Shown here one piece after another: positions 46,549-64,000 of a stretch of DNA of 64,000 nucleotides. Numbering within the stretch: position 1 is the first letter of the stretch; every line of letters starts with the position of its first letter. The position numbers were made by a program, and so were the translations under genes. This DNA is from Chelativorans sp. YIM 93263 (lineage in GTDB: Bacteria > Pseudomonadota > Alphaproteobacteria > Rhizobiales > Rhizobiaceae), in NCBI RefSeq assembly GCF_028767125.1, contig NZ_JAKCWP010000003.1, positions 372,001-436,000 on the forward strand, in the 5' to 3' direction. The notes under the pieces are model-generated. The model was not told the DNA's origin and searched no databases. It saw nothing but the letters and a program-made list of their open reading frames with translations.

Positions 46549-48024
46549 TCAACAGGCCCAGTAGAGGCTTTTCGCCTGCTGGTAAGCACGAAGTCCTTGC
46601 AGTCCTTTTTCCCGTCCAAGCCCGGAAAGTTTGAAGCCGCCGAATGGTGCCGCGATCGAGAGCTGCTTATAAGTATTGATCCAGACGGTTCCCGCCTCGA
46701 GCGCCCGCGCCGCGCGCCAGGCTTTCCGGTAGTCGTTCGTCCAAATTCCGGCGGCAAGGCCGTAGACGCTGTTATTTGCATCCGCGATCAGGTCGTCCTC
46801 GCCGTCGAAGGTCATGAAGCACAGGACAGGGCCGAATATTTCCTCCTGCGCGACCTCGGCGCTGTTGTCCATCCCGCCGATGATCGTCGGCTGATAATAA
46901 GCGCCATCGGCGAAGACCTCGCCTTCGGGGCGGCATCCGCCCAAGAGGATCTCGCCACCGGCCTCCACGCCGCGCCGCACGAAATCCTCGACACGATCCC
47001 GGTGCGCGAAGGAGGCTAGCGGCCCCAGCACGCTTTCGGGGTCGCTCGGCGGACCGAGCCGCATGCCCTCCGCCTCTGCGACCAGCAGGCCCTGGAACTC
47101 ATCCGCCACGGATTTTTCCACGAACAGACGCGAACCGGCAACGCACGACTGGCCGGTTCCGCCAAAAATACCCTTCGCCACCGATTTGGCTGCGGCTTTC
47201 AGATCGGCATCGGCAAAGACGATGTGGGGCGACTTACCGCCCAGTTCGAGGATCATCGGGACCAGCCGGTCGGCCGCGCCCCTGGCGATGCTCTGGCCCG
47301 TCGACGTGCCGCCGGTAAAGCTGATGAGGCCAATGCGGGAATCTTCCACAAGCGCGACCGCAGTCTCGACGCCGCCAGCGACCACCGAGAGGAGGCCTTC
47401 GGGAAGTCCTGCGGCAACGACGCACTGTCCCAGCGCCAGCGTGACAAAGGAGGTTGTCTCGGCCGCCTTGAGCACCACCGAATTGCCCGCCGCCAATGCC
47501 GGCGCGAGCTTTTGCGCGCCCATGGTCAAAGGCGAATTCCAAGGTGTCAGCGCGGCGACCACCCCGACCGGCTCATGAACGGTCATCGTGAAATAATCGC
47601 CGCGCGCGGGCGGCATCGCGTCCTCGATGCATTCGCACACGGCCGCGTAATAGCGAAAGATGCCCGCCGCCGCCATCGCCTGCGCCCGGCTTTCGGTGCG
47701 GGTTTTGCCGTTCTCGTTCATCTGCAGCTCGGCCAGATGGTCGGCCTGTCTCTCGATCTCATCGGCAGCCCGCGCGAGAACACGCGCGCGCATATGGGGC
47801 GGCTGCAGACCCCAGGCTGTGCTGCGTCCGGCTTCCTGCGCAAGCGCGATGGCGTTGCTGACCTGTGCGGGCGTGGAAGTGCCAATACGTCCGATCCGCT
47901 TGCCGTTTGCCGGATTGATGACGTCCATGACCGGCCCGTCGCCAGCGACGGGACGGCCGCCGATCAGCAGATCCTCGATCCGGTCCGGCAGTGGCATAGT
48001 AGCCGGCTCAGCGAACAGCGACAT
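46549..48024 (-). CDS. NAD(P)-dependent aldehyde dehydrogenase of the catabolic island
   Basis: 491 residues from ATG 48024, with AAGGAA ahead. ALDH superfamily: VVAALTPWNSPLTMGAQKLA, LKAAETTSFVTLALGQ, SFTGGTSTGQSIARGA, LELGGKSPHIVFADADLK (Glu), GTGQSCVAGSRLFVE (Cys), EEIFGPVLCFMTFD. It is closest in pattern to ALDHs acting on semialdehydes or hydroxyaldehydes, not BetB. Last gene of the minus-strand operon that begins at 53847, 16 bp after livF, so it probably oxidises an aldehyde made from the imported compound. Confidence 0.88.
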   Translation of the reverse strand: MSLFAEPATMPLPDRIEDLLIGGRPVAGDGPVMDVINPANGKRIGRIGTSTPAQVSNAIALAQEAGRSTAWGLQPPHMRARVLARAADEIERQADHLAELQMNENGKTRTESRAQAMAAAGIFRYYAAVCECIEDAMPPARGDYFTMTVHEPVGVVAALTPWNSPLTMGAQKLAPALAAGNSVVLKAAETTSFVTLALGQCVVAAGLPEGLLSVVAGGVETAVALVEDSRIGLISFTGGTSTGQSIARGAADRLVPMILELGGKSPHIVFADADLKAAAKSVAKGIFGGTGQSCVAGSRLFVEKSVADEFQGLLVAEAEGMRLGPPSDPESVLGPLASFAHRDRVEDFVRRGVEAGGEILLGGCRPEGEVFADGAYYQPTIIGGMDNSAEVAQEEIFGPVLCFMTFDGEDDLIADANNSVYGLAAGIWTNDYRKAWRAARALEAGTVWINTYKQLSIAAPFGGFKLSGLGREKGLQGLRAYQQAKSLYWAC

Positions 48025-48040
48025 TAGCGAATTCCTTTCT

Positions 48041-48754
48041 TCAATGGCCGAGATAGGCAGCACGGATTTCCGGGCTTGCCAGCAATTCGTGACCCGTACC
48101 GGTGAGTTTGACGCTACCGGTCTCGAGCACGATGCCCGTTGCGGCCAACGACAGCGCCATCTGCGCATTCTGTTCGACGAGCAATACCGTCATGCCCAGC
48201 CCACGGCTGATCTGCTCGATGATGCGGCCGAGTTCGGCAACGATAATGGGTGCAATACCGAGCGACGGTTCGTCGAGCAGGAGAACGCGCGGTTGCGCCA
48301 TCAGCGCGCGGCCGATAGCGCACATTTGCTGCTCCCCGCCCGAAAGCGAGCCGGCCGCCTGCCTTTTTCGTTCCTGCAGGCGGGGGAAGTACCCGTAGAC
48401 ACGCTCCAGCATTTCTCGTCGGGCGCGGCGATCGGATACCGTGTAGGCACCCATCATCAGGTTCTCCTCCACCGTCAGCCTGCCGAACAACCGCCGCCCC
48501 TCCGGCGATAGCGCGACGCCAAGCCTGAGGGCGGCGCCAGGTTTCGGCGCAACCGCTTCGCCGCCAACGGTGATGGTGCCTTCGACCGGCTCCACCAGCC
48601 CGCATATTGCCTTAAGAACGGTGCTCTTGCCCGCCCCATTAGAGCCGACCAGTGCCGCAATCTGGCCCTCCGGGACGTCGAAGCTGACACCATGAAGCGC
48701 GCGGACGGGCCCGTAATTGACCGTCAGTTCGCGGATAGACAGATCACTCGGCAT
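48041..48754 (-). CDS. livF: Branched-chain amino-acid-type ABC transporter ATPase LivF
   Basis: 237 residues from ATG 48754. Walker A GSNGAGKST, signature SLSGGEQQMCAIGRALMA, Walker B VLLLDEPSLGIAPI, H-loop LLVEQNAQMALSLA and the LivF-typical PEGRRLFGRLTVEENLMMGA. Pairs with LivG to power the importer. Overlaps livG by 11 bp. The substrate is set by the binding protein, not by this subunit. Confidence 0.92.
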   Translation of the reverse strand: MPSDLSIRELTVNYGPVRALHGVSFDVPEGQIAALVGSNGAGKSTVLKAICGLVEPVEGTITVGGEAVAPKPGAALRLGVALSPEGRRLFGRLTVEENLMMGAYTVSDRRARREMLERVYGYFPRLQERKRQAAGSLSGGEQQMCAIGRALMAQPRVLLLDEPSLGIAPIIVAELGRIIEQISRGLGMTVLLVEQNAQMALSLAATGIVLETGSVKLTGTGHELLASPEIRAAYLGH

Positions 48755-49517
48755 GTTCGACTCCAAGGTAGGCCTCGATGACCTTGGGGTCGTTCTGCAC
48801 ATCGGCAGGCCGGCCATCTGCGATTTTTTCACCGTGGTCCAGCACCACGATGTGATCGCACAACCGCATGATGAGGCGCATGTGGTGCTCGACGATCAGG
48901 ATGCTTAAGCCAAAGCGGTGCTTGAGATCGGAAAGGATGGAAGCGAAGCGATCGATCTCGTCCGGATTGAGCCCGGCGGCGGGCTCGTCCAGGAGCAGAA
49001 GCGAGGGACGGGTTGCAAGGCCGATGGCCACCCCCAGACGTTTCTGATGACCATAGGCTAGCGTCCCCGCGATACGCTCGGCATGAGCGGTCAGCGCCAG
49101 CACCTCCATCACCTCCTCGGCCGTGGCATGGGCGGCGGCTTCGGCCTCGCGCGCCCGCTCGCCCCCAAACAGTGAGGGAATTAGCCCCAGCGGGTAACGC
49201 AGCAATGCGCCACGCAATATGTTTTCCCGGACCGTCGCCTTGGGAAAGGTCGTGGCAGCCTGAAAGGTGCGGGCAAGGCCGCGCCCCACGATGCGGTGCG
49301 GCGGCAAGCCGGTGATCTTACTGCCGTTGAAAACAACCTTGCCCGCAGTGGCCGGCAGGGTGCCCGTAATGAGATTGAAGCAGGTGGTTTTGCCGGCGCC
49401 ATTGGGACCGATAACCCCCGTTGTTTGGCCCTTTTCCGCCGTGAAGCTTACATCGGAAAGCGCTGCCAAGCCGCCAAATCTCTTGCTGAGCCCTTCGACC
49501 GTTAGAATACTGCTCAT
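48744..49517 (-). CDS. livG: Branched-chain amino-acid-type ABC transporter ATPase LivG
   Basis: 257 residues from ATG 49517 (GGAGAG ahead; the frame is open upstream within livM). Walker A GPNGAGKTT, LivG motif ARTFQAATTFPKATVRENIL, LAYGHQKRLGVAIGLAT as signature region, Walker B LLLLDEPAAGLNPDE and LIVEHHMRLIMRLCD. The ABC signature reads YGHQKRLGVA rather than LSGGQ-like, common in LivG where it is YGxQRRLEIA. Overlaps livM by 4 bp. Confidence 0.92.
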   Translation of the reverse strand: MSSILTVEGLSKRFGGLAALSDVSFTAEKGQTTGVIGPNGAGKTTCFNLITGTLPATAGKVVFNGSKITGLPPHRIVGRGLARTFQAATTFPKATVRENILRGALLRYPLGLIPSLFGGERAREAEAAAHATAEEVMEVLALTAHAERIAGTLAYGHQKRLGVAIGLATRPSLLLLDEPAAGLNPDEIDRFASILSDLKHRFGLSILIVEHHMRLIMRLCDHIVVLDHGEKIADGRPADVQNDPKVIEAYLGVEHAE

Positions 49518-50485
49518 CGCTGATCTCTCCGCAAACGGGCGATTTGCTCCGGCAGCCCGGCTAGGCCCTGCGGCAGAAACCGCAGCACTGCAATCAGGAT
49601 GACACCATAGATAATATGCTGGTACTCCACCGCTCCGCGCAGGAATTCGGGCAACGGCGTCAGGAAAACAGCGCCCACCAGCGGTCCCCAAAGCGCAAGA
49701 CGTCCACCCGTAACCAGCATGATCACGTAGGAGACGGAGAGTTGGAAGGCGAAGGTCTCCGGAGAGACGAAGCCGACATAGTGTGCCATGATCGAGCCGG
49801 TGGCACCGGCAATGGCACAACCGATGACGAACGCGAGGCTCTGCGTGCGGGCCGTCGGGATTCCGGAGGATTCGGCCAGCGCCGGGTTTTCCTCGACAGC
49901 GGCGAACCGGCGGCCAAGCTGGCCATTGCGGATCAGCCATAGAAGCGCCATCACCACGGCGAGGCAGATCAATGTGAAGATATAAACCTGCCATTGGGCG
50001 GCGAGCGTTATCCCGAACAGTTGGATCTTGGGAACGCCGGCGATCCCGCTCGAACCGCCGGAGATGCCAGGGAACTCAAGCATCACAAGACGGAACAGCT
50101 CGTTCAACGCGAAGGTGATCAACACGAAATACACCCCGCGCAGGCGCAAAAGTGGCGCACCTATGATATAGGCGACGGCCCCGGCGACCACGGCAGCTGC
50201 AGGCAGCCCGACCAGAAAAGGCAGATCCAGGCGCGTGACCAGGAGAACCGACGTATAGGCTCCAATGCCGACAAAGGCGGCATGCGCCAGCGACAGCTGG
50301 CCCACCCAGGCGATGACCGCCAGACCACCCGTCGCCATGCCGGCCAAGCAAACCATGATGCCGATATGGAAATGGAAGACGCTGCCGGTGAACCACGGCA
50401 CCGCGGCTAGAGTTGCCAGCAGCGCCACGAACAACCAGCCGCCGAATGCGCTTGCCATTGGGGGCGCAGAAACCGAAGTGCTCAT
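49514..50485 (-). CDS. livM: Branched-chain amino-acid-type ABC transporter permease LivM
   Basis: 323 residues, about nine membrane helices. LivM motifs: VIAWVGQLSLAHAAFVGIGA, LRLRGVYFVLITFALNELFR, RRFAAVEENPALAESSGIPT, AFVIGCAIAGATGSIMAHYV and GGRLALWGPLVGAVFL. Forms the membrane channel with LivH. Overlaps livH and livG by 4 bp each. Confidence 0.9.
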   Translation of the reverse strand: MSTSVSAPPMASAFGGWLFVALLATLAAVPWFTGSVFHFHIGIMVCLAGMATGGLAVIAWVGQLSLAHAAFVGIGAYTSVLLVTRLDLPFLVGLPAAAVVAGAVAYIIGAPLLRLRGVYFVLITFALNELFRLVMLEFPGISGGSSGIAGVPKIQLFGITLAAQWQVYIFTLICLAVVMALLWLIRNGQLGRRFAAVEENPALAESSGIPTARTQSLAFVIGCAIAGATGSIMAHYVGFVSPETFAFQLSVSYVIMLVTGGRLALWGPLVGAVFLTPLPEFLRGAVEYQHIIYGVILIAVLRFLPQGLAGLPEQIARLRRDQR

Positions 50486-51345
50486 GCCTCCCCCCTTCCA
50501 AGCAGGCCGGCTGGCCGGATCAACAGGACCACGACCACCAGCGCGAATGTCACGATGTCGGCTGCCGAAGCACTGACGAAGGAGCTCGTCAGGCTTTCAA
50601 TCAAGCCAAGCAGGATTGCAGCCAGCGCAGCACCGGGGATAGAGCCGAGGCCCCCGAGGATCACGACGATGAAAGCCTTCAGAAGCGGCGTCGCACCGAT
50701 GAAGGGCGAGACGCCGAAAAGCGGCGCCATCAACCCACCGGCAACGGCGGCAAGCGCCACACCAAGTCCAAGCCCCAGCGGATACATGATCTCAAGCCGC
50801 ACGCCGTAGATCGCTGCAACTTCCTGATCCTGCACCAGGGCCCGCAATGCGCGCCCCATGCGGGTGTGCATCAGGAAGACGTAGAACGCCAGCAGGATCA
50901 CCACGCCCACGCCAAGCGTGAGGGCGCGCGATTGTGGAACGATGAGGTCTCCGAGGCGGTATACCCCCGACACAAGGGCGGGGAAGGATTGAGGATCGGG
51001 CCCGAAGATTATGAGCGCGGCGTGCTGCAGGATCATGGCCAAGCCGAGCGAGGCGATCATGCCCGACAGCTCATCCGCGCGAAAAGGCCTGAATACGATC
51101 CGCTCCACCAGCGCCCCGAGCAGGATCGCCAGCGCAGCGGTCAAGGCTAGCGCGAGTGGGAAGGGAAGCCCAAGCCAGTTCACCCCGATCAGTGCGAGGA
51201 AAGCCCCGATCATGTAGAATTCGCCATGTGCGAAATTGACGATTCGCATGACGCCGAATGCAAGGGTGAAGCCTATCGCCATCATCAGATAGAGCGTTCC
51301 GAGAATCACCCCATTAATGATCGATTGTGCGATCAGAAAACTCAC
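50482..51345 (-). CDS. livH: Branched-chain amino-acid-type ABC transporter permease LivH
   Basis: 287 residues from GTG 51345 with AAAGGT ahead (an upstream open extension to 51393 is poorly conserved in type). LivH motifs: INGVILGTLYLMMAIGFTLA, FGVMRIVNFAHGEFYMIGAF, TRMGRALRALVQDQEVAAIY, GVALAAVAGGLMAPLFGV and VVILGGLGSIPGAALAAILL. Partner of LivM. It follows the binding-protein gene by about 60 bp. Confidence 0.9.
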   Translation of the reverse strand: MSFLIAQSIINGVILGTLYLMMAIGFTLAFGVMRIVNFAHGEFYMIGAFLALIGVNWLGLPFPLALALTAALAILLGALVERIVFRPFRADELSGMIASLGLAMILQHAALIIFGPDPQSFPALVSGVYRLGDLIVPQSRALTLGVGVVILLAFYVFLMHTRMGRALRALVQDQEVAAIYGVRLEIMYPLGLGLGVALAAVAGGLMAPLFGVSPFIGATPLLKAFIVVILGGLGSIPGAALAAILLGLIESLTSSFVSASAADIVTFALVVVVLLIRPAGLLGRGEA

Positions 51346-51405
51346 GAACCGGACCTTTCGTTGAAGAAGATCGCGCGCGAGCGGAGCTCGCACGCGGTGT
51401 TTGCG

Positions 51406-52578
51406 CTATTCGCAGCCCGTCGTGGTGCATCTGGCGACGATGACCTCGGCGCCGTCTTCCACCCGGGCGATGTAGAACGGGGAGTCGAGCTGATGCGCAA
51501 TGCCGTAGGGCTCCTCGCCGGTCCAGTTCATGGTGCCCAACACGCCTTCGTAATCGGTTAGTCCTTCGAGCGCCGTCTTCACAGCCTCGGTGTCCTCGAC
51601 AGTGCCGGCCTCCTGCATGGCAGCGAACAGCATCTTGGTGCCGTCGTAGAAGAAGGGCGAGAAGCCGTTCATCGTCTCGCCATACGTTTCGACATAGCGC
51701 GCTTCGTAAGCGGCGGCTTTCTCGACGCCCGGATCGAACGCCGAATGCACGAACATGCCTTCGGTAGCCGCGTTACCGGCGACATTGACGATCTCTTGTG
51801 TCGCAGGACCGCCCGTGCGCACGATGACGCCCTCAAAGCCTATGTCGCGGGCCTGCTGAACGATCTGCCCCGCCGTAACCGGAGAATTGCCGTCCAATTC
51901 GATCGCATCGACGCCCTGCGCCACGATGCGTGTGAGCAGTGGGATGAAATCGACGCGGTCGCGCTCGAAGAATTCCACGGCCGCCAATTCCGCGCCGGCC
52001 GCCGAATAGGCCGCGGCAACATCCTCGGCGATCGCTTCGCCCGTCTCGTCTTTCGGAAAAAGGGCGCCCACCGTCTTGATGCCCTGGTTGGCCACGATCC
52101 AGTCGATCTGTGGTTGCGCCACCTCGGCGGTCGTCGGATTCGGCCGGAACGTGTACGGCTTCTCCGGCGAAAGCGCCTGCGCGGTGAAGCCGAGCGTCAT
52201 CGTGATAACACCGTTTTCCTCGGTGATTGGCTGAATGGCCAGAATTGGTGCGGAGCCGACCGTACCGATGATATACTTGACCTTCTCCTCGAAAACGAGG
52301 CGATTGGCGGCTGTGACCGCTTCATTTGCCTTGTAGGAATCGTCGTACGGGATGACCTCGACCTTATAATTCGTGCCGCCGACTTCCAGCCCGCCATTCT
52401 CGTTTACGTCTTCGGCCGCGAGTTCGGCCGCGCGCAGCATCCCTTGCCCCCAGCTTGCTCCGGCACCGGAAAGGGTGACCAGCGCGCCGATTTTCAACGT
52501 CTCTTCCTGCGCTATCGCGTTGCCGGCCATCAGGGCCACGGCAGAAGTTATTGCCAGAATTCTGCTCATTCTCATCAT
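51406..52578 (-). CDS. Periplasmic binding protein of the branched-chain-type ABC importer
   Basis: 390 residues from ATG 52578, preceded by GGGAGGAAAT. Signal peptide ILAITSAVALMAGNAIAQ, then the type I binding-protein fold: IGALVTLSGAGASWGQGMLR, AAELAAEDVNENGGLEVGG, YDDSYKANEAVTAANRLVFE, VEFFERDRVDFIPLLTRIVA, PFFYDGTKMLFAAMQEAGT. Family members bind branched-chain amino acids, amides, aromatic acids or others. Coupling to a hydrolase and CoA-degrading genes argues for an organic acid or ester breakdown product rather than leucine. A CTTTGCE-type tail with one cysteine ends it. Confidence 0.88.
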   Translation of the reverse strand: MMRMSRILAITSAVALMAGNAIAQEETLKIGALVTLSGAGASWGQGMLRAAELAAEDVNENGGLEVGGTNYKVEVIPYDDSYKANEAVTAANRLVFEEKVKYIIGTVGSAPILAIQPITEENGVITMTLGFTAQALSPEKPYTFRPNPTTAEVAQPQIDWIVANQGIKTVGALFPKDETGEAIAEDVAAAYSAAGAELAAVEFFERDRVDFIPLLTRIVAQGVDAIELDGNSPVTAGQIVQQARDIGFEGVIVRTGGPATQEIVNVAGNAATEGMFVHSAFDPGVEKAAAYEARYVETYGETMNGFSPFFYDGTKMLFAAMQEAGTVEDTEAVKTALEGLTDYEGVLGTMNWTGEEPYGIAHQLDSPFYIARVEDGAEVIVARCTTTGCE

Positions 52579-52591: not shown

Positions 52592-53473
52592 TCATTTGGC
52601 CGGCGTGCTTGCTTCAGCCGGCGGAGCCGAGGCTGCGATTTCCTGCAGCACCGGATGCAGGTAGCGGGCAAACTGCCCGTAATTCTCGCTCATCGGAAAA
52701 TGGCCCAACCGTTCCATTACGATCGCGCCGCATCCCGGAATCTGTTCCGCCGTGGCCAGCATGTCCTCGGGCCGGCACGAGAAATCGTACTCGCCTGCCA
52801 TCAGCCATAGTGGACAGCGCTGTGTGTCGATCCGACGAATCGTCTCGCGCAGGTCGCCATCGACGCGATAGAACCAGAGGTCGCCTTTGAAGATGCCCGG
52901 ACCGCCCTGCATGTAGTGCCAAAGGGTCTCGTGCCGGTCGGCCTCGGGGCCACCGGGCGCGATCAAGCCCGAGATGAGCGCGGCGCAAACTTCGCCGCCG
53001 TGAACGTCGGGGCGATGCAGCCAATCCGTGTCGTACCACGGCTCCTGCCACGCCGCGCCCTGCGCGCCGATTAGCCCCCGGAAACAGCCGGCGTGATCGG
53101 CCGCGAGCTGCAACACGATGCGCCCGCCAATAGAGCAGCCGAGCACGACCGGCCGGTCAAGGCCGAGCGCCTCGCAGACTGCAAGAATCGTCGAGACATA
53201 GGCGGCAGTAGTGAGGCGGTATTCCTCGTCCTGCCAACCTTCCGGCGGGCTGGATTTGCCGTGCCATGGCATATCGAAAGCAATGACGCGGAAGCGGCTC
53301 GTCACTTCAGGATCCAGGAGAAGGTCCCGGTACTGCCGGCCGTCCGCACCCGCCGTGTGAAGACAGAGAAGCGGGATGCCCTCGCCTGCTTCCTCAACAT
53401 AAAGGCGATGTGGCCGCCCACCGATTTCGAGGCGCAGATAGCGTCCGGTGATTGAGTCAAAGCGCGCGGTCAC
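52592..53473 (-). CDS. Alpha/beta hydrolase
   Basis: 293 residues. Fold features: YVEEAGEGIPLLCLHTAGAD (oxyanion region), VIAFDMPWHGKSSPPEG, the nucleophile elbow VVLGCSIGGRIVLQLAADHA (Ser in G-C-S-I-G), WLMAGEYDFSCRPEDM (acid) and RLGHFPMSENYGQF (His). Similar to meta-cleavage-product and ester hydrolases. It overlaps the SCP2-like gene by 4 bp and precedes the binding protein by 13 bp, so it probably opens an ester, lactone or C-C bond of the imported compound. Confidence 0.85.
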   Translation of the reverse strand: MTARFDSITGRYLRLEIGGRPHRLYVEEAGEGIPLLCLHTAGADGRQYRDLLLDPEVTSRFRVIAFDMPWHGKSSPPEGWQDEEYRLTTAAYVSTILAVCEALGLDRPVVLGCSIGGRIVLQLAADHAGCFRGLIGAQGAAWQEPWYDTDWLHRPDVHGGEVCAALISGLIAPGGPEADRHETLWHYMQGGPGIFKGDLWFYRVDGDLRETIRRIDTQRCPLWLMAGEYDFSCRPEDMLATAEQIPGCGAIVMERLGHFPMSENYGQFARYLHPVLQEIAASAPPAEASTPAK

Positions 53474-53847
53474 GACGCGCCCCTGGGCAGAGCGACGATG
53501 TCCTTCACAAGTTGAAGGTGGCGCATCAGCGGCAGGAAGTTGCCTTCAATGCGCATGCGTCCGTGCCGGGCCATGCCGAAAATATCGTTGGCATCGGGCC
53601 GGGGAAACAGCGACCAATGATCGGCCCACGCGTCCGGCGCAGCCCTCAGCGCCACGTCCCACCCGTCCATCGGACCGGAAGTGTCCTGGATCTGAAGCGT
53701 TCCACAATCGAGCCGCAGCCGCTTGCACTCTTCACCTGCCTCGAGCAACAGGGTGATCCGGGCTCGCGCGGCCCCCCGAACCAACGCTTCAGACGCTGCG
53801 AACAGGGCAGGAATTCGCGCAAAAGACTCGGCAATCCCGCTCCCCAT
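53470..53847 (-). CDS. Small SCP2-fold-like protein, unknown function
   Basis: 125 residues: ESFARIPALFAASEALVRGA, ARITLLLEAGEECKRLRLDC, WDVALRAAPDAWADHWSLFP, RPDANDIFGMARHGRMRIEG, NFLPLMRHLQLVKDIVALPR. The last segments resemble sterol-carrier (SCP2-like) domains, where a hydrophobic pocket holds a lipid or acyl-CoA, but the match is by eye only. First gene of the operon with the hydrolase, suggesting it holds the hydrophobic substrate or an intermediate. Confidence 0.6.
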   Translation of the reverse strand: MGSGIAESFARIPALFAASEALVRGAARARITLLLEAGEECKRLRLDCGTLQIQDTSGPMDGWDVALRAAPDAWADHWSLFPRPDANDIFGMARHGRMRIEGNFLPLMRHLQLVKDIVALPRGAS

Positions 53848-53967
53848 CTACGCCTCCATGTGGTTTGTTTGGCAGAACATTTGGTCTGTTTTATAAACGC
53901 ACTGTCAGCGGTTTGGCAATGCGTTTTCGTTTTCGAGCTCCCGCCAGCCCTGTTGAAACGCATCCTA

Positions 53968-53986: not shown

Positions 53987-54031
53987 CTAGCAGAATTTTA
54001 GGTCTATTTCCTGAAACAGGAGGTACTGAAT

Positions 54032-56100: not shown

Positions 56101-56838
56101 GTGAGCATGGATCAAAAGTTCGATATGGATGCGGACAAATCGCAGCGTGGCGTCGCGGCGGTGGACCGGGCCCTGTCGATAATTGCGGCCCTGGAAGCCT
56201 GGAGCATGCCGCGAAACCTGTCAGAGATTTCGCGTGCAACCGGTCTCTATAAAAGCACGATCCTGCGTCTCCTGCAGTCGCTGCAGGACGCAGGCTACGT
56301 GATACGTGTTGACGAATCCAAATATGCCCTCGGCCCGACGGTCATGCAGCTGGGCCTCGCTTACGAGCGCGCTAATCCGCTGCGTCATCTGTTTTTGCCG
56401 GTCATGCAGCGGCTGGTCGACGCCGGTCTGGAAAGCCCCTCCTTCCACATTCGCCAGACCGCCGAGGAACGCGTGTGCCTGTTCCGGCTGGACTCCAATC
56501 ACTCGACGCTCGACCGTGTGCATGCGGGGGATCGCCTTCCGATGCGCCGCGGCGCGGCGGGCAAGGTTCTGCTTGCTTTCGGCGAGGATCACGCCGAAGG
56601 CGAGGAGATGGATCAGATCCGGCGTGACTGCTTTGCCGCATCCCTCGGCGAGCGTGACAAGTTTTGCGCCGGTGTGGCCGCTCCGGTCTTCACCCGCCGC
56701 GACCGGCTGATGGGTGCCCTCTCCCTCTCCGGCCCCAAGGAACGCTTCACCCCTGAAGATGTCGAACGGATGAAGGGGCCCTTACAGGCCGCTGTCCGCG
56801 AATTGACGACGGAGATGGGCGGGACCTATCCCACTTGA
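56101..56838 (+). CDS. IclR-family transcriptional regulator
   Basis: 245 residues from GTG 56101, favoured by GAGG about 8 bases ahead; ATG 56107 is the alternative. N-terminal helix-turn-helix (GVAAVDRALSIIAALEAWSM, LSEISRATGLYKSTILRLLQ, SLQDAGYV) and a C-terminal effector domain (RGAAGKVLLAFGE, FCAGVAAPVFTRRDRLMGAL). IclR regulators often sense aromatic or small organic acids and sit beside the catabolic genes they control. It follows the dehydrogenase gene by 222 bp and carries its own candidate operator. Confidence 0.9.
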   Translation: MSMDQKFDMDADKSQRGVAAVDRALSIIAALEAWSMPRNLSEISRATGLYKSTILRLLQSLQDAGYVIRVDESKYALGPTVMQLGLAYERANPLRHLFLPVMQRLVDAGLESPSFHIRQTAEERVCLFRLDSNHSTLDRVHAGDRLPMRRGAAGKVLLAFGEDHAEGEEMDQIRRDCFAASLGERDKFCAGVAAPVFTRRDRLMGALSLSGPKERFTPEDVERMKGPLQAAVRELTTEMGGTYPT

Positions 56839-56862
56839 GCCGGCATTACTCCGGCCGCGACC

Positions 56863-57261
56863 TTAGACGGGGCGAAAGAACGGCAGTGGCGGCCCCTCCC
56901 CTTGCCGCCTGAATTCCACCTCCACGGCGTCGCCGATGGCGAGCTTTTCGGGCGCATCGGTCAGGATTTGCGTCATCATGCGAGGTCCTTCCGCCAGATC
57001 GACCAGCGCGACTGCATAGGGCAAATCCTCCTTGAAGGGCGCCGCAGCGCGATGCACAACCGTGACCGCATGAACTGTGGCTCGCCCAGACACCGATACC
57101 CATTGAAGATCGTCGGAAAGGCAAGACGGGCAAACGACGCGCGGATAAAAGACATGCTCGCCGCAGCCGGTGCATCGCTGCACCTTCAGAACGCCTTGGG
57201 CAGCGGCTTCCCAGAAGGGCGTGGTTTCGGAATCCGGAACGGGAACGGGCTTGTTGCTCAT
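56863..57261 (-). CDS. DUF35 / OB-fold nucleic acid-type zinc-ribbon protein, thiolase partner
   Basis: 132 residues: a zinc ribbon with four cysteines (VQRCTGCGEHVFYPRVVCPS followed by C) and an OB-fold (GRATVHAVTVVHRAAAPF, PYAVALVDLAEGPRMMTQI, IGDAVEVEFRRQG). Such proteins form complexes with SCP2-type thiolases or aldolases acting on acyl-CoA (seen in acetoacetyl-CoA thiolase/HMG-CoA complexes and steroid side-chain aldolases). Its start overlaps the thiolase stop by 4 bp. Last gene of the minus-strand operon. Confidence 0.88.
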   Translation of the reverse strand: MSNKPVPVPDSETTPFWEAAAQGVLKVQRCTGCGEHVFYPRVVCPSCLSDDLQWVSVSGRATVHAVTVVHRAAAPFKEDLPYAVALVDLAEGPRMMTQILTDAPEKLAIGDAVEVEFRRQGEGPPLPFFRPV

Positions 57262-58424
57262 CGGCGTGGCTCCTTGCCAAGGATAAGGGTGGATCCGGCG
57301 GAGAGCGCGCCGCCGGTTCCATGAACGAGGGCGAGATTCACCGGCACCTGCCGCTCGCCCGCCTCGCCACGGATCTGGCGCACGGCCTCCACGAGAAGAA
57401 AAATGCCGTACATGCCCGGATGGGTATAGCTGAGACCGCCGCCCTGGGTGTTCATCGGAAATTCACCGTCGGGCGCAATGCGTCCGTGGGACACAAAATC
57501 CCCGCCCTCGCCTTTCCCGCAGAACCCCAGGTCCTCCAGTGTCATCAACGCGGTGATGGTGAAGCTGTCGTAGATCATCGCCAGGTCCATGTCCTGTGGC
57601 CGCAGGCCGGCGCTCGCAAAAGCCGCGGGCCCGGTGCGCGCGGCGGGCGTTACCGTCAAATCGGGCATGTTGGCGATCGAGGAATGGGTATGCGTCTCGG
57701 CCGAACCCCACAGCCAGACGGGTGCCTTGCGCGCATCCCGCGCCCGGTCGGCCCGGGTGACGACCACGGCGCCGCCGCCGTCAGTCACGAGACAACAATC
57801 GAGCTTGCCGAGCGGCGTGGCGATCATCGGTGCCGCAAGCACATCTTCAACGGTCAGCGGCTCATGCCGTGGCGCGTCAGGGTTTAGCCTCGCCCAGGCG
57901 CGCGCGGCGACCGCAATCTCAGCCAACTGCTCGCGGGTGGTGCCGTAGAGATGCATGTACCGGGAGGCTGCCAGCGCATAGGCGCCGGTCATCATCGGCA
58001 AGCCCCAGGGCGCCTCGAACTGCGAAAAAGGCAACCAGGGATCCGTGCCGCCGCCGAAGCCTGCACCGCCGCTCCGCTGGGTCGACCCGTATGTGATCAG
58101 GCAAGTGTTGCAAAGACCGGCATCAATGGCGAGGGCCGCATGCTGCACATACGCTTCGAATGAGCAACCGCCCAACGAGGTGGAGTCACTGTAGCTGGGG
58201 CAGATGCCGAGATACTCAGCCACCTGCACCGACGGCATCCTGGTGCCGTGCGACGAGCCGATCGACAACACGCCGTCCACTTCCGACAGGGGAATGCCCG
58301 CATCTTCGAGAGCCCGCTTGGCCGCCTGCGCATGCAGCTGCATTTCCGTGCGGTGCGGCAGGATACCGACCTCGCTTTCGGCGGCACCGGTAATCGCCAC
58401 CGCATCCCTGAAATTGCGCCCCAT
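57258..58424 (-). CDS. SCP2-type thiolase / acetyl-CoA acetyltransferase family
   Basis: 388 residues from ATG 58424, starting MGRNFRDAVAITGAAESEVG, 4 bp after the FadJ-like stop. Thiolase-fold signatures: LHAQAAKRALEDAGIPLSEV, DSTSLGGCSFEAYVQHAALA (Cys), EPLTVEDVLAAPMIATPLGK, DGGGAVVVTRADRARD, and a C-terminal NLALVHGTGGALSAGSTLIL. It belongs to the group that works with a DUF35 partner, present next door. Expected to cleave a 3-ketoacyl-CoA (or do a retro-aldol step) at the end of the pathway. Confidence 0.85.
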   Translation of the reverse strand: MGRNFRDAVAITGAAESEVGILPHRTEMQLHAQAAKRALEDAGIPLSEVDGVLSIGSSHGTRMPSVQVAEYLGICPSYSDSTSLGGCSFEAYVQHAALAIDAGLCNTCLITYGSTQRSGGAGFGGGTDPWLPFSQFEAPWGLPMMTGAYALAASRYMHLYGTTREQLAEIAVAARAWARLNPDAPRHEPLTVEDVLAAPMIATPLGKLDCCLVTDGGGAVVVTRADRARDARKAPVWLWGSAETHTHSSIANMPDLTVTPAARTGPAAFASAGLRPQDMDLAMIYDSFTITALMTLEDLGFCGKGEGGDFVSHGRIAPDGEFPMNTQGGGLSYTHPGMYGIFLLVEAVRQIRGEAGERQVPVNLALVHGTGGALSAGSTLILGKEPRR

Positions 58425-58428: not shown

Positions 58429-60495
58429 TCAATCCTCGCTGTTTCGTTCTGCATTCCATTCGGCGAAGCTGCGGCCTTCGCCTGCCAATTGGGCAAGGAG
58501 CGGCGCCGGCCGCAACCTTTCCTCTTCCGCCTCCCGCGACCAGGCGTCGAGCGCAGAAGCGATCCGGTCCAGCCCCTCCTGGTCAGCCCAGTACATGAGG
58601 CCGCCTCGCCAGGCCGGGAATCCGTATCCATGGACATAGATCACGTCGATATCGCTCGGGCGCGCAGCGATCCCTTCTTCAAGGACGCGCGCTCCCTCGT
58701 TGACCATCGGATAGAACAGCCGCGCGATGATCTCTTCCTCGGAAAAAGTGCGCTGCTTGACGCCCAACCGGACGGCGATGCTTTCGATCAGCCTGTCTGT
58801 TTCGGGATCAGGAATGGGCGTGCGCCCGTCTTCGTAGCGATAGTACCCCGCCCCGGTCTTCTGGCCGAGGCGCCCCATCTCACACAGCGCGTCGGCTACC
58901 GGCAGATTGTAGCCCTGGCTTTGCCGGACAAGGCGGGAGACATCGAGGCCGGCCAAATCATTCATCTGGAAGGGGCCCATGGCCATGCCGAAGCGCGTCA
59001 CCGCGCCGTCCACCTCAGCCGGCCGTGCGCCCTGCTCGAGCAGCAACTCCGCCTGGTGGTGGCGCTGGCGCAGGATGCGGTTGCCCACGAAGCCCGGACA
59101 ATTACCGACGACAGCCGGTTGCTTGTCCAGCCGCCCGGCGATGGCAAGGGCTGTCGCCAAGCTATCGCCCGATGTTCTGGCGCCCCGTACGATCTCCAGC
59201 AGGCGCATCACGTTGGCCGGTGAGAAGAAATGCAGGCCGATCACGCGTTCTGGATGTTGTGTGGCGGAGGCTATGGCGTTGATGTCGAGCGATGAAGTGT
59301 TGGACGCCAGCACCGCCTCGCCGGCAACGATTCCGTCGAGATCGCGAAACAGCCGCTGCTTGAGTTCCATATCCTCGAAGACAGCCTCCACCACCACATT
59401 GGCGCCGTCCGCCGCGTCCAGCGCGGTAGCGGGGGTGATGAGTGCCATTCGCGCCTCGCATTCGTCCGGGCTGATCCGCCCGCGACCGACCGAAATCTCG
59501 TAATTTTTACGAATCCGCGCTAAGCCCTTCTCGAGCATCTCCTGCTTGGCATCGATCAGAACCACCGGAATGCCGGCATCGGCAAAGCTCATCGCAATGC
59601 CCCCGCCCATGGTGCCCGCGCCCACGACGGCCGCCCGATCAATAGTCCCAGCCGTTCCGGAGACGTCCACGGGCAGGCGCGCAGCCTTTCGTTCCGCGAA
59701 GAAGAGGTGCCGCATCGCGGCCGATTGATCCCCCGAACGCAGCTCCTGAAAGCGTCGCTGCGCCTCCTTTTGTGCCGTCGCATCATCCTGCCGGAAGCTG
59801 TCGCGAACCGCCTCGACAAGCGCCGCTAACGCATCGGCCCCGCGTGCGCGGCGCAATACCTTCTCGGCGGTATGCTCGAAGTCTTCACGATCAGCCCGCG
59901 CAGCCGCCGCCGTTTTCGGATCATCCGCCAGCTGCTGTGCCAGCGCGATGGCGGCACCCTGCAGATCATGCGAGACGGCGTCGACCAGCCCCATGCTAAG
60001 CGCCTCCTCGGCATCAAGCCGGCGACCCTCGGCCATGAGCCTGAGCGCCGCCGCCGCGCCGATGAGCCTTGGCAGACGGAACGTGCCCCCTGCGCCCGGA
60101 ATGAGACCGAGGCGTATCTCGGGCAACCCTATCTGCGCATCGGGCGCGGCGACGCGGCCATGACAGGCTAGCGCCAGTTCGAAGCCGCCGCCGAGGGTGG
60201 GACCATGTATAGCAGCGACCACTGGCTTCTTCAGCGCTGCGATGTGCATGAATATCTCCGGCGAGGTCGGTTCTTGCGGCGGAGCGTTCAGCTGACGGAT
60301 ATCCGCTCCGGCGCAGAGCGAGCGCCCTTTGCCAGCTATCACCACTGCCCGCACGTTGGAATCAGCGGCAGCCTTATCGAGGCACGCCTCCAGGTCGACG
60401 CGCATATGGTGGCTGAGCGCGTTGACCGGCGGGTTGTCGATCATCAACAGCGCCACATCGTCCACGCGCTGAAGGGTTACGGCACGTTCAGTCAT
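58429..60495 (-). CDS. fadJ: Bifunctional enoyl-CoA hydratase / 3-hydroxyacyl-CoA dehydrogenase
   Basis: 688 residues. N-terminal crotonase domain: GKGRSLCAGADIRQL (oxyanion hole), GGGFELALACHGRVAAPDAQ and IGLPEIRLGLIPGAGGTFRL with both catalytic Glu. Dehydrogenase domain: GAGTMGGGIAMSFADAGIPV, SNTSSLDINAIASAT, GLHFFSPANVMRLLEIVRG (catalytic His) and two C-terminal HCDH domains (NCPGFVGNRILRQRHHQAEL). Does the hydration and oxidation steps of beta-oxidation. Starts 1 bp after the TctA stop. Confidence 0.92.
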   Translation of the reverse strand: MTERAVTLQRVDDVALLMIDNPPVNALSHHMRVDLEACLDKAAADSNVRAVVIAGKGRSLCAGADIRQLNAPPQEPTSPEIFMHIAALKKPVVAAIHGPTLGGGFELALACHGRVAAPDAQIGLPEIRLGLIPGAGGTFRLPRLIGAAAALRLMAEGRRLDAEEALSMGLVDAVSHDLQGAAIALAQQLADDPKTAAAARADREDFEHTAEKVLRRARGADALAALVEAVRDSFRQDDATAQKEAQRRFQELRSGDQSAAMRHLFFAERKAARLPVDVSGTAGTIDRAAVVGAGTMGGGIAMSFADAGIPVVLIDAKQEMLEKGLARIRKNYEISVGRGRISPDECEARMALITPATALDAADGANVVVEAVFEDMELKQRLFRDLDGIVAGEAVLASNTSSLDINAIASATQHPERVIGLHFFSPANVMRLLEIVRGARTSGDSLATALAIAGRLDKQPAVVGNCPGFVGNRILRQRHHQAELLLEQGARPAEVDGAVTRFGMAMGPFQMNDLAGLDVSRLVRQSQGYNLPVADALCEMGRLGQKTGAGYYRYEDGRTPIPDPETDRLIESIAVRLGVKQRTFSEEEIIARLFYPMVNEGARVLEEGIAARPSDIDVIYVHGYGFPAWRGGLMYWADQEGLDRIASALDAWSREAEEERLRPAPLLAQLAGEGRSFAEWNAERNSED

Positions 60496-60496: not shown

Positions 60497-62017
60497 CTAT
60501 GTCTCCATTGAAGTGGTCACCGCATTGCGCCGGCGCCACGCCCGCAACGCCTGCCACAAAGAGAGCAGGAGCAAGCCCAGGGCGAGAGCGAGAAGGCCAG
60601 CACTGATCGGGCGCTCGATGAAAATGGCCAGATCCCCGCGCGATACCAGAAGCGCTCGCTTGAAATGCTCCTCGATCAGCGGGCCGAGGATGAAGCCCAG
60701 CAGAACCGGAGCGGTCGGGTAGCGAAGCATGTTCATGAAGAAGCCAAGAATGCCAAAGGCGAGAGCAACGCCGACATCGAACGGGTTGGATCGCACCGAG
60801 TAGACACCCACGCAGATGAGGAAGAGCATGGTCGGGTAGAGCACTCGATAGGGGACTGTCAGCAGCCGCACCCAAAGGCCGATCAGCGGCACGTTGAGTA
60901 CCAGCAGCATGATGTTGCCGATCCAAAAGCTGGCCACCAGTCCCCAGAACAGCGTCGACTGCTCCTGAATGAATTGCGGCCCGGGGATGATGCCGTGGAT
61001 CATCAGCGCGCCCAGCAGAATGGCCATCACCGCATCGCCTGGCACGCCGAGGCTGAGCGTCGGGATAAAGGCCGCCTGCACGGCGGCGTTGTTGGCCGAT
61101 TCCGGCGCCGCGACACCTTCGACGGCACCCTTACCGAAGCGGGACGGGTCCTTCGCCACGCGCCGCTCCACCGCATAGGCGATGAAGGTCGCCATCGAGG
61201 GTCCGGAGCCCGGCAGCGCCCCGATGATTGAGCCGATGCCGGCGCCGCGCAGCGACGGCCACGGAATCCGGCGCCAATCGTCGCGCGTCGGCAGCAGGGA
61301 ACGAAACGTAATGTCGCGCGCCAGGACCTGCGGTTGTTCGCGCCGGACTAGGGTCGACAGGATTTCCGATATGCCGAACAAGCCCATGGCGATGGCGACA
61401 AGCTGAAAGCCCTCCGCCATTTCGTAGCGGCCGAAAGTAAAACGCATGAGGCCGGAATTGATGTCCGTCCCGGGAATGGCGAGCGCCAAACCCAGCACCA
61501 CCATGGCGAGCCCTTTGAGAGGCGAGCCGACGCTGAAGGTCGAAGCGGCTACGAGACCAAGGAACATTGCCGAGAAATACTCTGCCGAGTTGAACGAAAG
61601 CGCCAGGTTCGCGAGCATTGGCGTAAAGAACATCATCAGGCAGATCGCGAACATGCCGCCGAAGAAGCTGGTTATCGACGTCGTGAACAGCGCCACGCCG
61701 GCGCGCCCGTCGCGTGCCATTGGATATCCGTCGAGGCAGGTGACGGCCGCCGTCGCGGTGCCTGGAATGTTCAGCAGGATCGCAGCGGTCGAGCTGCCAT
61801 ACTGAGCGCCGTAGAAGATGCCAGCCAGCATGATCAGCCCGACCATCGGGTCGAGATAGTAGGTGAGCGGCAGGAGCATCGCGATTGCCGCCAGCGCGCC
61901 GATGCCGGGAAGGACGCCGACAAACGTGCCGACGGATACACCGATGAAACAGAAGAGCAGCGCGTCCAGGCTGAGGGCGGCCGAAAAACCGTGTGAGAGA
62001 TTGGCGAGCGTTTCCAT
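60497..62017 (-). CDS. tctA: Tripartite tricarboxylate transporter large permease TctA
   Basis: 506 residues with about 11-12 membrane helices. TctA signature: VGVLPGIGALAAIAMLLPLT, GIFYGAQYGSSTAAILLNIP, GTATAAVTCLDGYPMARDGR, GIGSIIGALPGSGPSMATFI, VEGVAAPESANNAAVQAAFI and PTLSLGVPGDAVMAILLGAL. Couples proton or sodium flux to uptake of carboxylates handed over by a TctC binding protein. No tctC lies in the window; it may be just upstream, past the right edge. 3 bp after tctB. Confidence 0.92.
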   Translation of the reverse strand: METLANLSHGFSAALSLDALLFCFIGVSVGTFVGVLPGIGALAAIAMLLPLTYYLDPMVGLIMLAGIFYGAQYGSSTAAILLNIPGTATAAVTCLDGYPMARDGRAGVALFTTSITSFFGGMFAICLMMFFTPMLANLALSFNSAEYFSAMFLGLVAASTFSVGSPLKGLAMVVLGLALAIPGTDINSGLMRFTFGRYEMAEGFQLVAIAMGLFGISEILSTLVRREQPQVLARDITFRSLLPTRDDWRRIPWPSLRGAGIGSIIGALPGSGPSMATFIAYAVERRVAKDPSRFGKGAVEGVAAPESANNAAVQAAFIPTLSLGVPGDAVMAILLGALMIHGIIPGPQFIQEQSTLFWGLVASFWIGNIMLLVLNVPLIGLWVRLLTVPYRVLYPTMLFLICVGVYSVRSNPFDVGVALAFGILGFFMNMLRYPTAPVLLGFILGPLIEEHFKRALLVSRGDLAIFIERPISAGLLALALGLLLLSLWQALRAWRRRNAVTTSMET

Positions 62018-62020
62018 AGC

Positions 62021-62467
62021 TCACCACCAGAACGGGTCGAGCGAAACGCCGAGCCCGGGAACGAAAAGGAGGTAGCCGGCAATGGCAATGACTGCCGCCG
62101 ACAGCAGGGCCGGCATCGCCCGGAACGGCGGGTCGGCGAACGCCGCAAGCACGATCATGCCGAGGGTTGCCGGAATCATACCGATGTGGCGTACCGTGAA
62201 GGCGAAGAACAGGATCGACAGGCCGATGGCAATGAGCGGTCGCAATCGGATCTCAAAGACCTCCTCCGGCGCGCGCAACGCCTCGAAGAGCAGACCGACG
62301 CCGAAGAGAGCGAGGAGCGTGCCCAGCGCCACCGGCATGAAGCCCGCCCCCATCCGGCGCAGCGACCCCAGTGGATAGTCCATGCCTTTCGCCGCCATGA
62401 AGACGCCGAAGGCGAGCACGGTCAGCGCCGCCGCCGTCTCCGGCCAGTTGATGTGTCGTCCCTTCAT
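62021..62467 (-). CDS. tctB: Tripartite tricarboxylate transporter small subunit TctB
   Basis: 148 residues with four membrane helices: AALTVLAFGVFMAAKGMDY, GFMPVALGTLLALFGVGLLF, RPLIAIGLSILFFAFTVRHI and IPATLGMIVLAAFADPPFRA. The SLRRMGAGFMPVALG segment is the TctB motif. Small membrane subunit paired with TctA. It follows the carboxylase gene by 20 bp. Confidence 0.88.
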   Translation of the reverse strand: MKGRHINWPETAAALTVLAFGVFMAAKGMDYPLGSLRRMGAGFMPVALGTLLALFGVGLLFEALRAPEEVFEIRLRPLIAIGLSILFFAFTVRHIGMIPATLGMIVLAAFADPPFRAMPALLSAAVIAIAGYLLFVPGLGVSLDPFWW

Positions 62468-62487
62468 GCCGCCTCCCTATTGTCGCC

Positions 62488-64000
62488 TTACCAGGCGTCG
62501 ACCATGGGTCGTTTGGACTCTTTCGGCAGTCGCGCCCGCGGCACCGCGGCCAATCCCGCCGCCAACAGGCTTCTGGTCTCGGCCGGGTCGATGACAGCGT
62601 CGATGCTGAGATAGGGGGCGATATTGACGGCCTTGCCCGCCTCATACATGCCGGCGACGATCTCGCGATAGCGTTCATCGCGCGCCTGCGAATCCGTGAT
62701 CGCCTCGAGCTCCTTGCGGAAGCCCAAACGCGCAGCGCCTTCAAGGCCCATGGCGCCAAATTCTCCGGACGGCCAGCTGAGCGTCATCTGGCTGCTTTCG
62801 TGAAAGCTGCCGCCGCTCATGGCCATCGCCCCCAGGCCATAAGCCTTGCGCAGGATCACCGTCAGGAAGGGCGTGTTGAGGCTGGCTCCCACCAGGAACA
62901 TCCGGCTGAAATGGCGGACATTGGCGCGCGTTTCCGCGTCCGGGCCCACCATAAAGCCGGGCGTGTCGACGAGACTGATGATCGGCAGGTCGTAGGCATC
63001 GCAAAGCTGCATGAAGCGCGCCGCCTTGTCCGCCTCGTCACGATCGAGCGCTCCGCCATTGACGGCGGCAACATTGGCCATGACGCCGCACGGGCGGCCT
63101 TCGATGCGGATAAGCGCCGTCACCAGCGCGGGACCGAACTGGCGGCGCAGTTCAAGCACGCTGTCCTTGTCGGCCACCATCTCTATCAAGGGCCGTACGT
63201 CATAGGCGCGTTTGCGGTCTTCAGGAACCGCGCCGCGCAGCATGCGCTCATCACCCGCCTCCCAATCCTCAAGTGAACCCTGGAAATAGGACAGATACTT
63301 GCGGGCGGCAGCTGTGGCTTCTGCTTCGTCCGCAACGAGGACGTCGATAACCCCGTTCGGCGCCTGCACCGAAACGGGTCCAACCTCTTCCGGCCGGTAA
63401 ACGCCAAGCCCCGCCCCTTCGATCATCGCCGGTCCGCCCATACCGATATTTGCATCCTCGGTGGCTATCACCACGTCGCAGACCCCCAGTACGGCCGCAT
63501 TGCCGGCAAAGCAACGCCCCGAAACGATACCCACCATCGGAGCCACGCCAGACATGCGGGCGAGCTGCCAGAATGTCGGGTTGGCGAGATTCACGCCCGG
63601 GCGGTTATCCGTGTCACCTGGACGGCCGCCGCCGCCCTCGGCATAGATGACGACGGGCAATGCTGACCTTTCTGCCACCCGCAGAAGCCGGTCCGTCTTA
63701 CGATGGCCGATATTGCCCTGGGTGCCCGCAAAGACCGTATAGTCATAGGACATGACCGCCGCACGTGCCCGTTCGGAGCCAAAGATCGAGCCATTGATGG
63801 TGGCAAGCCCCGCCACAAGTCCGTCGGCCGGGCTGATCTGCCGCAGATGCTCTTCCGAATGGCGGCTGCGCTGCGCGGCGACGGCCAGCGCGCCATATTC
63901 GACAAAACTGCCTTGATCGCAGAGATCCGCGATATTCTCGCGCGCGGTACGCTTGCCCTTTGCATGCCGCCGTTTGACGGCTTCGGGCCGGGCGGCGTCG
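62488..64000 (-). CDS. Acyl-CoA carboxylase carboxyltransferase subunit (cut by window end)
   Basis: The reading frame runs off the right edge, so about 503 residues are visible and the N-terminus is missing. Carboxyltransferase features: TARENIADLCDQGSFVEYGA, VVIYAEGGGGRPGD, GIVSGRCFAGNAAVLGVCDV, ATEDANIGMGGPAMIEGAGL, KAARFMQLCDAYDLPIISLV followed by DTPGFMVGPDAE, and LRKAYGLGAMAMSGGSFHES. Related to propionyl-, methylcrotonyl- and geranyl-CoA carboxylase beta subunits; no biotin carboxylase lies in the window. First visible gene of the beta-oxidation operon. Confidence 0.88.
   Translation of the reverse strand, partial: DAARPEAVKRRHAKGKRTARENIADLCDQGSFVEYGALAVAAQRSRHSEEHLRQISPADGLVAGLATINGSIFGSERARAAVMSYDYTVFAGTQGNIGHRKTDRLLRVAERSALPVVIYAEGGGGRPGDTDNRPGVNLANPTFWQLARMSGVAPMVGIVSGRCFAGNAAVLGVCDVVIATEDANIGMGGPAMIEGAGLGVYRPEEVGPVSVQAPNGVIDVLVADEAEATAAARKYLSYFQGSLEDWEAGDERMLRGAVPEDRKRAYDVRPLIEMVADKDSVLELRRQFGPALVTALIRIEGRPCGVMANVAAVNGGALDRDEADKAARFMQLCDAYDLPIISLVDTPGFMVGPDAETRANVRHFSRMFLVGASLNTPFLTVILRKAYGLGAMAMSGGSFHESSQMTLSWPSGEFGAMGLEGAARLGFRKELEAITDSQARDERYREIVAGMYEAGKAVNIAPYLSIDAVIDPAETRSLLAAGLAAVPRARLPKESKRPMVDAW

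Follow-up and report, generated by a model that had tools for sequence, protein, structure and literature searches.

We identified a catabolic gene island in Chelativorans sp. YIM 93263, an alphaproteobacterium of the family Rhizobiaceae, in a stretch of 64,000 nucleotides (positions 372,001 to 436,000 of contig NZ_JAKCWP010000003.1; hereafter the window, in whose numbering all coordinates are given). The island consists of 19 genes in four blocks, named here A (eight genes), B (three), C (six), and D (two), counting the genes for TctC and a coenzyme A (CoA) synthetase that lie past the window edge. We consider it fairly probable that one IclR-type regulator controls these genes as a two-module regulon for the uptake of an ester or lactone, its opening and oxidation, and a CoA-dependent cleavage. 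The blocks are linked in other genera as well, and a 14-bp palindrome is common to the divergent promoter regions between A and B and between C and D. Both the conserved linkage and the placement of the palindrome are direct observations.

Gene content was also observed directly. Codon-scored open reading frames (ORFs) over the window and its same-contig flanks, together with Pfam and NCBIfam searches, bear out the three blocks, the gene families and the gene order around a single IclR gene that the original prediction had read from the window. That prediction placed an acyl-CoA carboxylase at the edge; the family assignment stands, but the chain does not end at 64000 and runs on to 65841. It also proposed a search past 64000 for tctC, a CoA ligase, and a biotin carboxylase, and all three are present, as TctC, a nucleoside diphosphate (NDP)-forming synthetase, and a biotin carboxylase domain. 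Of the CoA ligase and the acyl-CoA dehydrogenase that it suspected beyond the edge, only the ligase was found; there is no acyl-CoA dehydrogenase among the ten ORFs scanned of the flanking stretch L003. Block A is an eight-gene operon on the minus strand, B lies on the plus strand, C on the minus strand is cut by the window edge, and D (65957-69271, plus strand) lies beyond it, followed downstream by another ABC system (permease, binding protein, ATPase). The genes are as follows.

46549-48168, minus strand: A1, aldehyde dehydrogenase (PF00171; ortholog in relatives' clusters); the true start is probably further in than the ORF start, as the Aldedh domain runs from residue 79
48041-48832, minus strand: A2, LivF-type ATPase (family searches; relatives' clusters)
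48744-49517, minus strand: A3, LivG-type ATPase (family searches; start inferred, ORF to 49994)
49514-50485, minus strand: A4, LivM-type permease (PF02653)
50482-51393, minus strand: A5, LivH-type permease (PF02653)
51406-52578, minus strand: A6, LivK-type binding protein (PF13458; start inferred, ORF to 52671)
52592-53473, minus strand: A7, alpha/beta hydrolase (PF00561; Ser-Asp-His retained)
53470-53847, minus strand: A8, SCP2-like small protein, paired with hydrolase A7
54032-55000, plus strand: B1, lactonase of the SMP-30/gluconolactonase family (PF08450)
54997-55878, plus strand: B2, beta-hydroxyacid dehydrogenase of the 3-HIBADH family (PF03446/PF14833; start inferred, ORF from 54943)
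56107-56838, plus strand: B3, IclR-family regulator (PF09339/PF01614; start inferred, ORF from 56002)
56863-57261, minus strand: C1, DUF35/ChsH2-type Zn-ribbon OB-fold protein (PF01796 and PF12172)
57258-58409, minus strand: C2, SCP-x-type thiolase-like protein (NF004811 above cut-off; start inferred, ORF to 58637)
58429-60495, minus strand: C3, FadJ-like enoyl-CoA hydratase/3-hydroxyacyl-CoA dehydrogenase (family search; catalytic residues)
60497-62017, minus strand: C4, TctA (PF01970)
62021-62467, minus strand: C5, TctB (PF07331)
62488-65841 (window part ends at 64000), minus strand: C6, single-chain acyl-CoA carboxylase (domains, 4RCN match)
65957-67018 (ORF, past the window edge), plus strand: D1, TctC (family search)
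67085-69271 (past the window edge), plus strand: D2, NDP-forming acyl-CoA synthetase of 728 residues (family search)

Both importers are complete. The Liv/HAAT-type ABC system has its binding protein, two permeases, and two ATPases together, and the tripartite tricarboxylate transporter has TctA and TctB in the window and TctC past its edge. Regulator B3 holds both the HTH_IclR and the IclR_C domain. Pfam gives no SCP2 match for the A8 protein; a distant relative matches SCP2 at E 0.008, below the cut-off, and a structure model of A8 (low confidence, pLDDT 58) retrieves mostly SCP2 structures. For C1, a longer ORF in another frame (56849-57322) has no family match and was rejected in favor of 56863-57261.

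When the thiolase was searched against 84,980 species genomes, ten loci (L036-L045) were recovered. Block C is present in six of them (L036-L041, 75-91% thiolase identity). The original prediction named as a point against itself that the blocks might never occur together; all three occur jointly in four of the ten loci (L036-L039), where A and B genes accompany C. These four, Martelella limonii, M. mediterranea IOP_24, Oceanicola sp. S124, and a Rhodobacteraceae metagenome-assembled genome (MAG), carry the whole set or as much of it as their contigs show. On the Oceanicola contig (L038), the FadJ, thiolase, and DUF35 genes of the block are visible; TctA, with an operator site, is on a separate contig, C337. 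The weaker loci L042-L045 (55-57%) have only thiolase and DUF35 in the DNA examined. Thus the gene set recurs, as had been proposed, but in a changed block order, which differs among the window, Martelella, and the two Rhodobacteraceae; the linkage has therefore outlived rearrangement. The full set spans Hyphomicrobiales and Rhodobacterales, and the core block reaches further groups. The gene set is rare. Own genome aside, no thiolase exceeds 58% identity among 151 sampled family genomes, and no TctA exceeds 63% among 385 class genomes. The hydrolase occurs at 80% or more in 4 of 394 family genomes, namely the window genome, G667, G774, and G694; the last three all carry A and B, with C as well in G667 and a C remnant in G774. 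G667 is probably the M. limonii genome of L036, and G774 may be M. mediterranea DSM 17316 (L046); in that case Martelella falls within the family of the window, which makes the Rhodobacteraceae the more distant carriers. M. mediterranea DSM 17316 has module 1 (blocks A and B) beside a remnant of the CoA block (C and D). At L046, 14932-17547, of that genome, the CoA block retains only thiolase, DUF35, and short genes for the synthetase and the dehydrogenase.

The two divergent promoter regions contain the following predicted operators and weaker operator-like sites, at which this IclR protein may bind.

53874-53887: predicted IclR operator AGAACATTTGGTCT, before A8
53992-54005: weaker operator-like site before B1, with a score within the shuffle range
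65857: strong predicted operator AGAACATATGTTCT, in the C6/D1 divergent promoter region past the window edge
65987: weak operator-like site inside the longest TctC ORF, before the likely TctC start

The strict pattern AGAMCWWWYGKTCT occurs at two places in the 4.25-Mb window genome, both in the island. Across eight genomes it occurs at 13 places, of which 12 are in cluster intergenic regions (the Oceanicola C337 site is counted among these by its position before TctA) and one is elsewhere in G151; among the eight it is absent from Azospirillum. The backward control gave five strand-matches over all eight genomes. A matrix was also made from ten sites, all from relatives and none from the window. 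Its four highest-scoring positions in 124 kb are 65857 (25.7), 53874 (22.9), 65987 (14.6), and 53992 (14.3); each divergent promoter region contains two of them. Azospirillum has a single instance of a looser pattern, AGAMCNNNNGKTCT, in its 6.5 Mb; it lies 134 bases ahead of an operon of binding protein, HIBADH, Liv, and TcuAB genes. A site one mismatch off this pattern precedes the carboxylase there. The looser pattern is found at 10 places in the window genome and at 6-10 in four genus members. The palindrome core, RAACA-N2-TGTTY, is identical to a portion of the group-2 consensus for IclR, TGRAACAN1-2TGTTYCA, given in PMC8222616. The window, G694, Martelella, the Rhodobacteraceae MAG, Palleronia, Azospirillum, and an Ectothiorhodospiraceae MAG each have an IclR gene inside the cluster or adjoining it; that of the Rhodobacteraceae MAG is beside the synthetase and 79% identical to the Martelella IclR.

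From these families we infer the order of reactions and the type of substrate. In module 1, which comprises A and B and, within the cluster of several relatives, tcuAB, the Liv-type importer would take up a small ester or lactone. The alpha/beta hydrolase, helped by its SCP2-like partner, would cleave an ester, and the SMP-30 enzyme would open a lactone. The HIBADH-family enzyme may convert the hydroxyacid to a semialdehyde, and the aldehyde dehydrogenase the semialdehyde to a carboxylic acid. A TcuAB-type desaturation of the free acid probably stands in for the absent acyl-CoA dehydrogenase, in trans in the window genome. In module 2 (C and D), TctABC would import the acid or a relative of it, and the NDP-forming synthetase would charge the acid with CoA. 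The FadJ-like enzyme would hydrate and oxidize enoyl- and 3-hydroxyacyl-CoA, the thiolase-like/DUF35 pair would cleave a branched acyl-CoA, and the single-chain biotin enzyme may carboxylate an acyl-CoA intermediate or product. A specific version of this scheme is quite tentative and may well be wrong. It would start with a carboxymethyl-gamma-lactone, or an ester of it, and end in the tricarboxylic acid (TCA) cycle: after opening, oxidation of hydroxymethyl to carboxyl would give tricarballylate, which TcuAB would turn into cis-aconitate, with a linked CoA branch containing the single-chain biotin carboxylase and a thiolase-fold enzyme that has a thiolase Cys and an aldolase-type Tyr. The lactone would be a carboxymethyl-gamma-butyrolactone because the TcuAB family name implies tricarballylate, if TcuAB acts so.

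TcuAB lies outside the window, where the original prediction could not have seen it, and might fill the dehydrogenation step. All six loci with block C have a TcuA-like gene, either inside the cluster or no more than about 13 kb away on the contig. Martelella, Oceanicola, and the Rhodobacteraceae MAG have a row of SMP30, HIBADH, TcuA, and TcuB genes. In Azospirillum halopraeferens a row of HIBADH, LivGFHM, TcuA, and TcuB genes adjoins the CoA block. The Ectothiorhodospiraceae MAG has a row of DUF35, TcuA-like, aldehyde dehydrogenase, and HIBADH genes, in which the TcuA-like protein is only 36% identical and no TcuB was seen. In the Martelella cluster TcuA scores above both NCBIfam cut-offs and TcuB above one of two; the Ectothiorhodospiraceae TcuA-like protein likewise exceeds only one of two. 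The relative in Shinella (75%) is near acnA and a PrpF-domain gene. In a tree of TcuA, six island copies form one clade (95/99). The Azospirillum copy groups with the window-genome copy from contig C22 and Methylobacterium (89/96, a tentative grouping). The copy of the Ectothiorhodospiraceae MAG forms a very long branch, likewise outside the six-copy clade.

The thiolase-like protein C2 combines a thiolase-type Cys82 with an aldolase-type YDSF motif, and both are kept in seven of seven cluster homologs. Six relatives at 52-57% identity (L042, L043, L044, L068, L072, and L073) all have Ser or Ala at the Cys82 position and YDSF or YDAF at the motif. In BbsAB (PDB 7PXP), a thiolase-fold protein likewise has a DUF35-type partner (PMC12329534), and the BbsB Cys aligns with Cys82, although in the alignment with 7yvy it is one column off. 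BbsB differs in having HDAF where C2 has YDSF, and C2 scores 130.7 bits against the NCBIfam equivalog for the BbsB benzoylsuccinyl-CoA thiolase, far under its cut-off of 750. A one-step alternative, compatible with the regulon, is that the C2/DUF35 pair acts as a retro-aldolase of the Ltp2/Sal type, cleaving the side chain of a 3-hydroxyacyl-CoA and not a 3-oxoacyl-CoA. YDSF does resemble the YDHF/YDCY motif that PMC12329534 gives for the Ltp2 and Sal aldolases, and 4u4e, the nearest solved structure to C2, has Ser in place of the thiolase Cys. An Ltp2/Sal aldolase would have the tyrosine of YDxF/Y and lack the thiolase Cys; C2 has both residues. However, the adjoining FadJ retains its dehydrogenase residues, and DUF35 is not fused to a hydratase. 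Because Cys82 is kept in all cluster homologs, unlike the 52-57% relatives, and aligns with the BbsB Cys, thiolysis seems likelier than retro-aldol cleavage, which we hold to be somewhat unlikely. A thiolase paralog in the window genome sits on contig C3 in an unrelated cluster.

The carboxylase C6 is a single 1117-residue chain in which biotin carboxylase (BC), biotinyl carrier (BCCP), and carboxyltransferase (CT) domains follow in that order, and it carries the biotinyl lysine in an AMKM motif. The single-chain long-chain acyl-CoA carboxylase (LCC; PDB 4RCN) has the same BC-BCCP-CT layout and matches at 1075 bits over residues 28-1093. C6 fits an LCC-type carboxylase by domain layout and lysine motif; its substrate may or may not be a long-chain acyl-CoA. 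Plasmid-borne relatives gave no clue to its role, as the three neighborhoods inspected are other contexts. The synthetase D2 has CoA-binding, Succ_CoA_lig, and ATP-grasp_5 domains. Its motif for what we take to be the phospho-His is kept in five of eight loci, that is, wherever the position aligned; the remaining three loci are cut. The catalytic residues, at their presumed active positions, are directly seen to be retained in the window and in all relatives with an alignment at the position, cut loci being uninformative; they are hydrolase Ser-Asp-His, HIBADH Lys, FadJ Glu/Glu and His/Glu, the biotinyl Lys, and the synthetase His.

Related gene rows support the proposed order of steps. Agrobacterium larrymoorei, G628, and G686 each have a row of SCP2, hydrolase, aldehyde dehydrogenase, and FadJ genes together with a CoA synthetase gene; in A. 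larrymoorei an acyl-CoA dehydrogenase gene lies ahead of the row. In four neighborhoods of HIBADH relatives at 48-50%, three have an AHL-lactonase-family gene, two an aldehyde dehydrogenase, and one an acetate-CoA-ligase-family gene, and a Rhodococcus row joins lactonase, HIBADH, aldehyde dehydrogenase, and CoA enzymes. The Azospirillum cluster contains an AHL-lactonase-like MBL protein and an SSADH-like aldehyde dehydrogenase (best families, both below cut-off), and no SMP-30 match was seen there. Such enzyme replacements would keep the order lactone, hydroxyacid, semialdehyde, acid. Among the HIBADH neighborhoods, a unit of HIBADH and AHL-lactonase-family genes with importer or CoA genes recurs on plasmids of A. 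larrymoorei, Salipiger, and Rhodococcus (L132, L133, L134). On Rhodobacterales plasmids of Limimaricola, Sulfitobacter, and Marinibacterium (L107, L108, L111), the neighbors of the SCP2-like/hydrolase pair include genes for benzoate dioxygenase or a ring-cleavage dioxygenase; the pair has no such neighbors in Xanthobacter.

The island begins about 335 bases past a tRNA gene that marks the end of genus-conserved DNA and the start of an accessory region.

46137-46213, plus strand: tRNA-Pro (CGG), found by ARAGORN

Just left of the tRNA, at 42933-46063, are the choline dehydrogenase and betaine-aldehyde dehydrogenase genes betA and betB. Counting the window genome itself, 13 of 16 genomes of the genus match this stretch, and in 12 the match continues through the tRNA end. 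The accessory region is about 73 kb long (about 46214-118950, past the edge). Of four genus members set against it, two have 4-10 kb in its place, with synteny resuming at about 118,950; in the other two it does not resume within the 20 kb taken. An origin by integrase and att site was set aside, as contig C21 has no PF00589 match and the stretches examined contain no repeat of the tRNA end.

The original view of one pathway under one IclR regulator is supported by the joint blocks and by the shared operator-like palindrome in the divergent promoters, with the amendment that the system is modular and not indivisible. Several observations weigh against a single regulon-encoded pathway. The modules are separable: G694 has A, B, and IclR without the CoA block (best TctA only 38%), a Palleronia plasmid has A and B together with tcuAB and CoA genes of other kinds, with no C block nearby, and the examined stretches of Azospirillum and the Ectothiorhodospiraceae MAG have the CoA block without that Liv block. 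Since the blocks recur jointly in new orders and also apart, they are linked modules, and one obligatory linear pathway is not proven. The tcuAB genes of the window genome are not in the island but only on contig C22, where they adjoin a LysR-type gene (judged by eye) and a TctA 32% identical to that of the island. The island TcuA copies are not a single clade, and the three changes that the island label needs on their tree were reached, with as few, in 41 of 500 shuffles, so a single origin of the link between TcuA and the island is not shown. The sites that defined the strict pattern lie in these same clusters, and therefore the relatives-only matrix is the fairer test, although the promoters behind it share descent with those of the window. 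Six mononucleotide shuffles peaked at 12.5-17.9, a range that includes 65987 and 53992, so that only 65857 and 53874 are individually convincing. With 1-10 places per genome, compared with 15-35 for its backward control, the looser pattern is the rarer of the two and thus not enriched in genomes at large. The Palleronia A/B promoter has only a poor site (10.1), no IclR gene is present in the Oceanicola stretches examined, and C6 has no explained role in the proposed scheme.

We regard it as rather unlikely that two independent pathways share only a regulator and a neighborhood, with module 1 leading from a lactone or ester to a TCA-cycle acid, module 2 serving a separate organic acid imported by TctABC, and inducers coming from the same source. 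The occurrence of each module without the other and the two different importers fit such an arrangement. However, the Ectothiorhodospiraceae MAG has its TcuA-like, aldehyde dehydrogenase, and HIBADH genes after the CoA block in one row, and three other genomes join hydrolase, aldehyde dehydrogenase, CoA synthetase, and FadJ genes in the same way. It is very improbable, and already largely refuted, that common catabolic genes came together by chance in the accessory region next to tRNA-Pro: the families are indeed common and the region is far longer than in the two genus members, but the same combination is found in other genera with changed block order, and the palindrome is common to the clusters. 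Routes for pantoate, mevalonate, camphor, domoate, jasmonate, and sulfoquinovose were considered and dropped, as the CoA block or TcuAB does not fit them. The two-module regulon that we favor would represent a testable set of about 19 genes with predicted operators for ester and lactone breakdown. If it is correct, single-chain acyl-CoA carboxylases and thiolase/DUF35 pairs gain a concrete catabolic setting, and the scheme suggests a physiological source for tricarballylate.

In agreement with the original prediction, which did not recognize the gene set as a described pathway, none in the open-licence literature searched matched the joint set, the shared palindrome, or the TcuAB link; each family is already known, and by that literature it is their combination that appears to be new. 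The itaconate/methylsuccinate cluster of PMC12290011 similarly breaks down a branched dicarboxylate in a CoA-dependent way, and in one cluster a lactonase gene is proposed; however, the main text of that paper contains no thiolase, IclR, or tricarballyl- term. Tricarballylate utilization by TcuAB and a transporter is resembled through the Martelella TcuA, which passes both family cut-offs. It differs in that tcuAB accompany the lactonase/HIBADH pair in the relatives, and the window island itself is not a tcu locus with tcuAB inside it.

The gamma-butyrolactone operon AttKLM/BlcABC of Agrobacterium encodes a lactonase, a hydroxyacid dehydrogenase, and a semialdehyde dehydrogenase, the same series of steps that we propose for module 1, and the MBL protein and SSADH-like enzyme of the Azospirillum version add to this likeness. 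In contrast, the island lactonase is of the SMP-30 family and not an ortholog of the MBL lactonase of BlcABC, its dehydrogenase is of the HIBADH family, and an importer, a hydrolase, and the CoA block, with tcuAB in relatives, accompany these enzymes.

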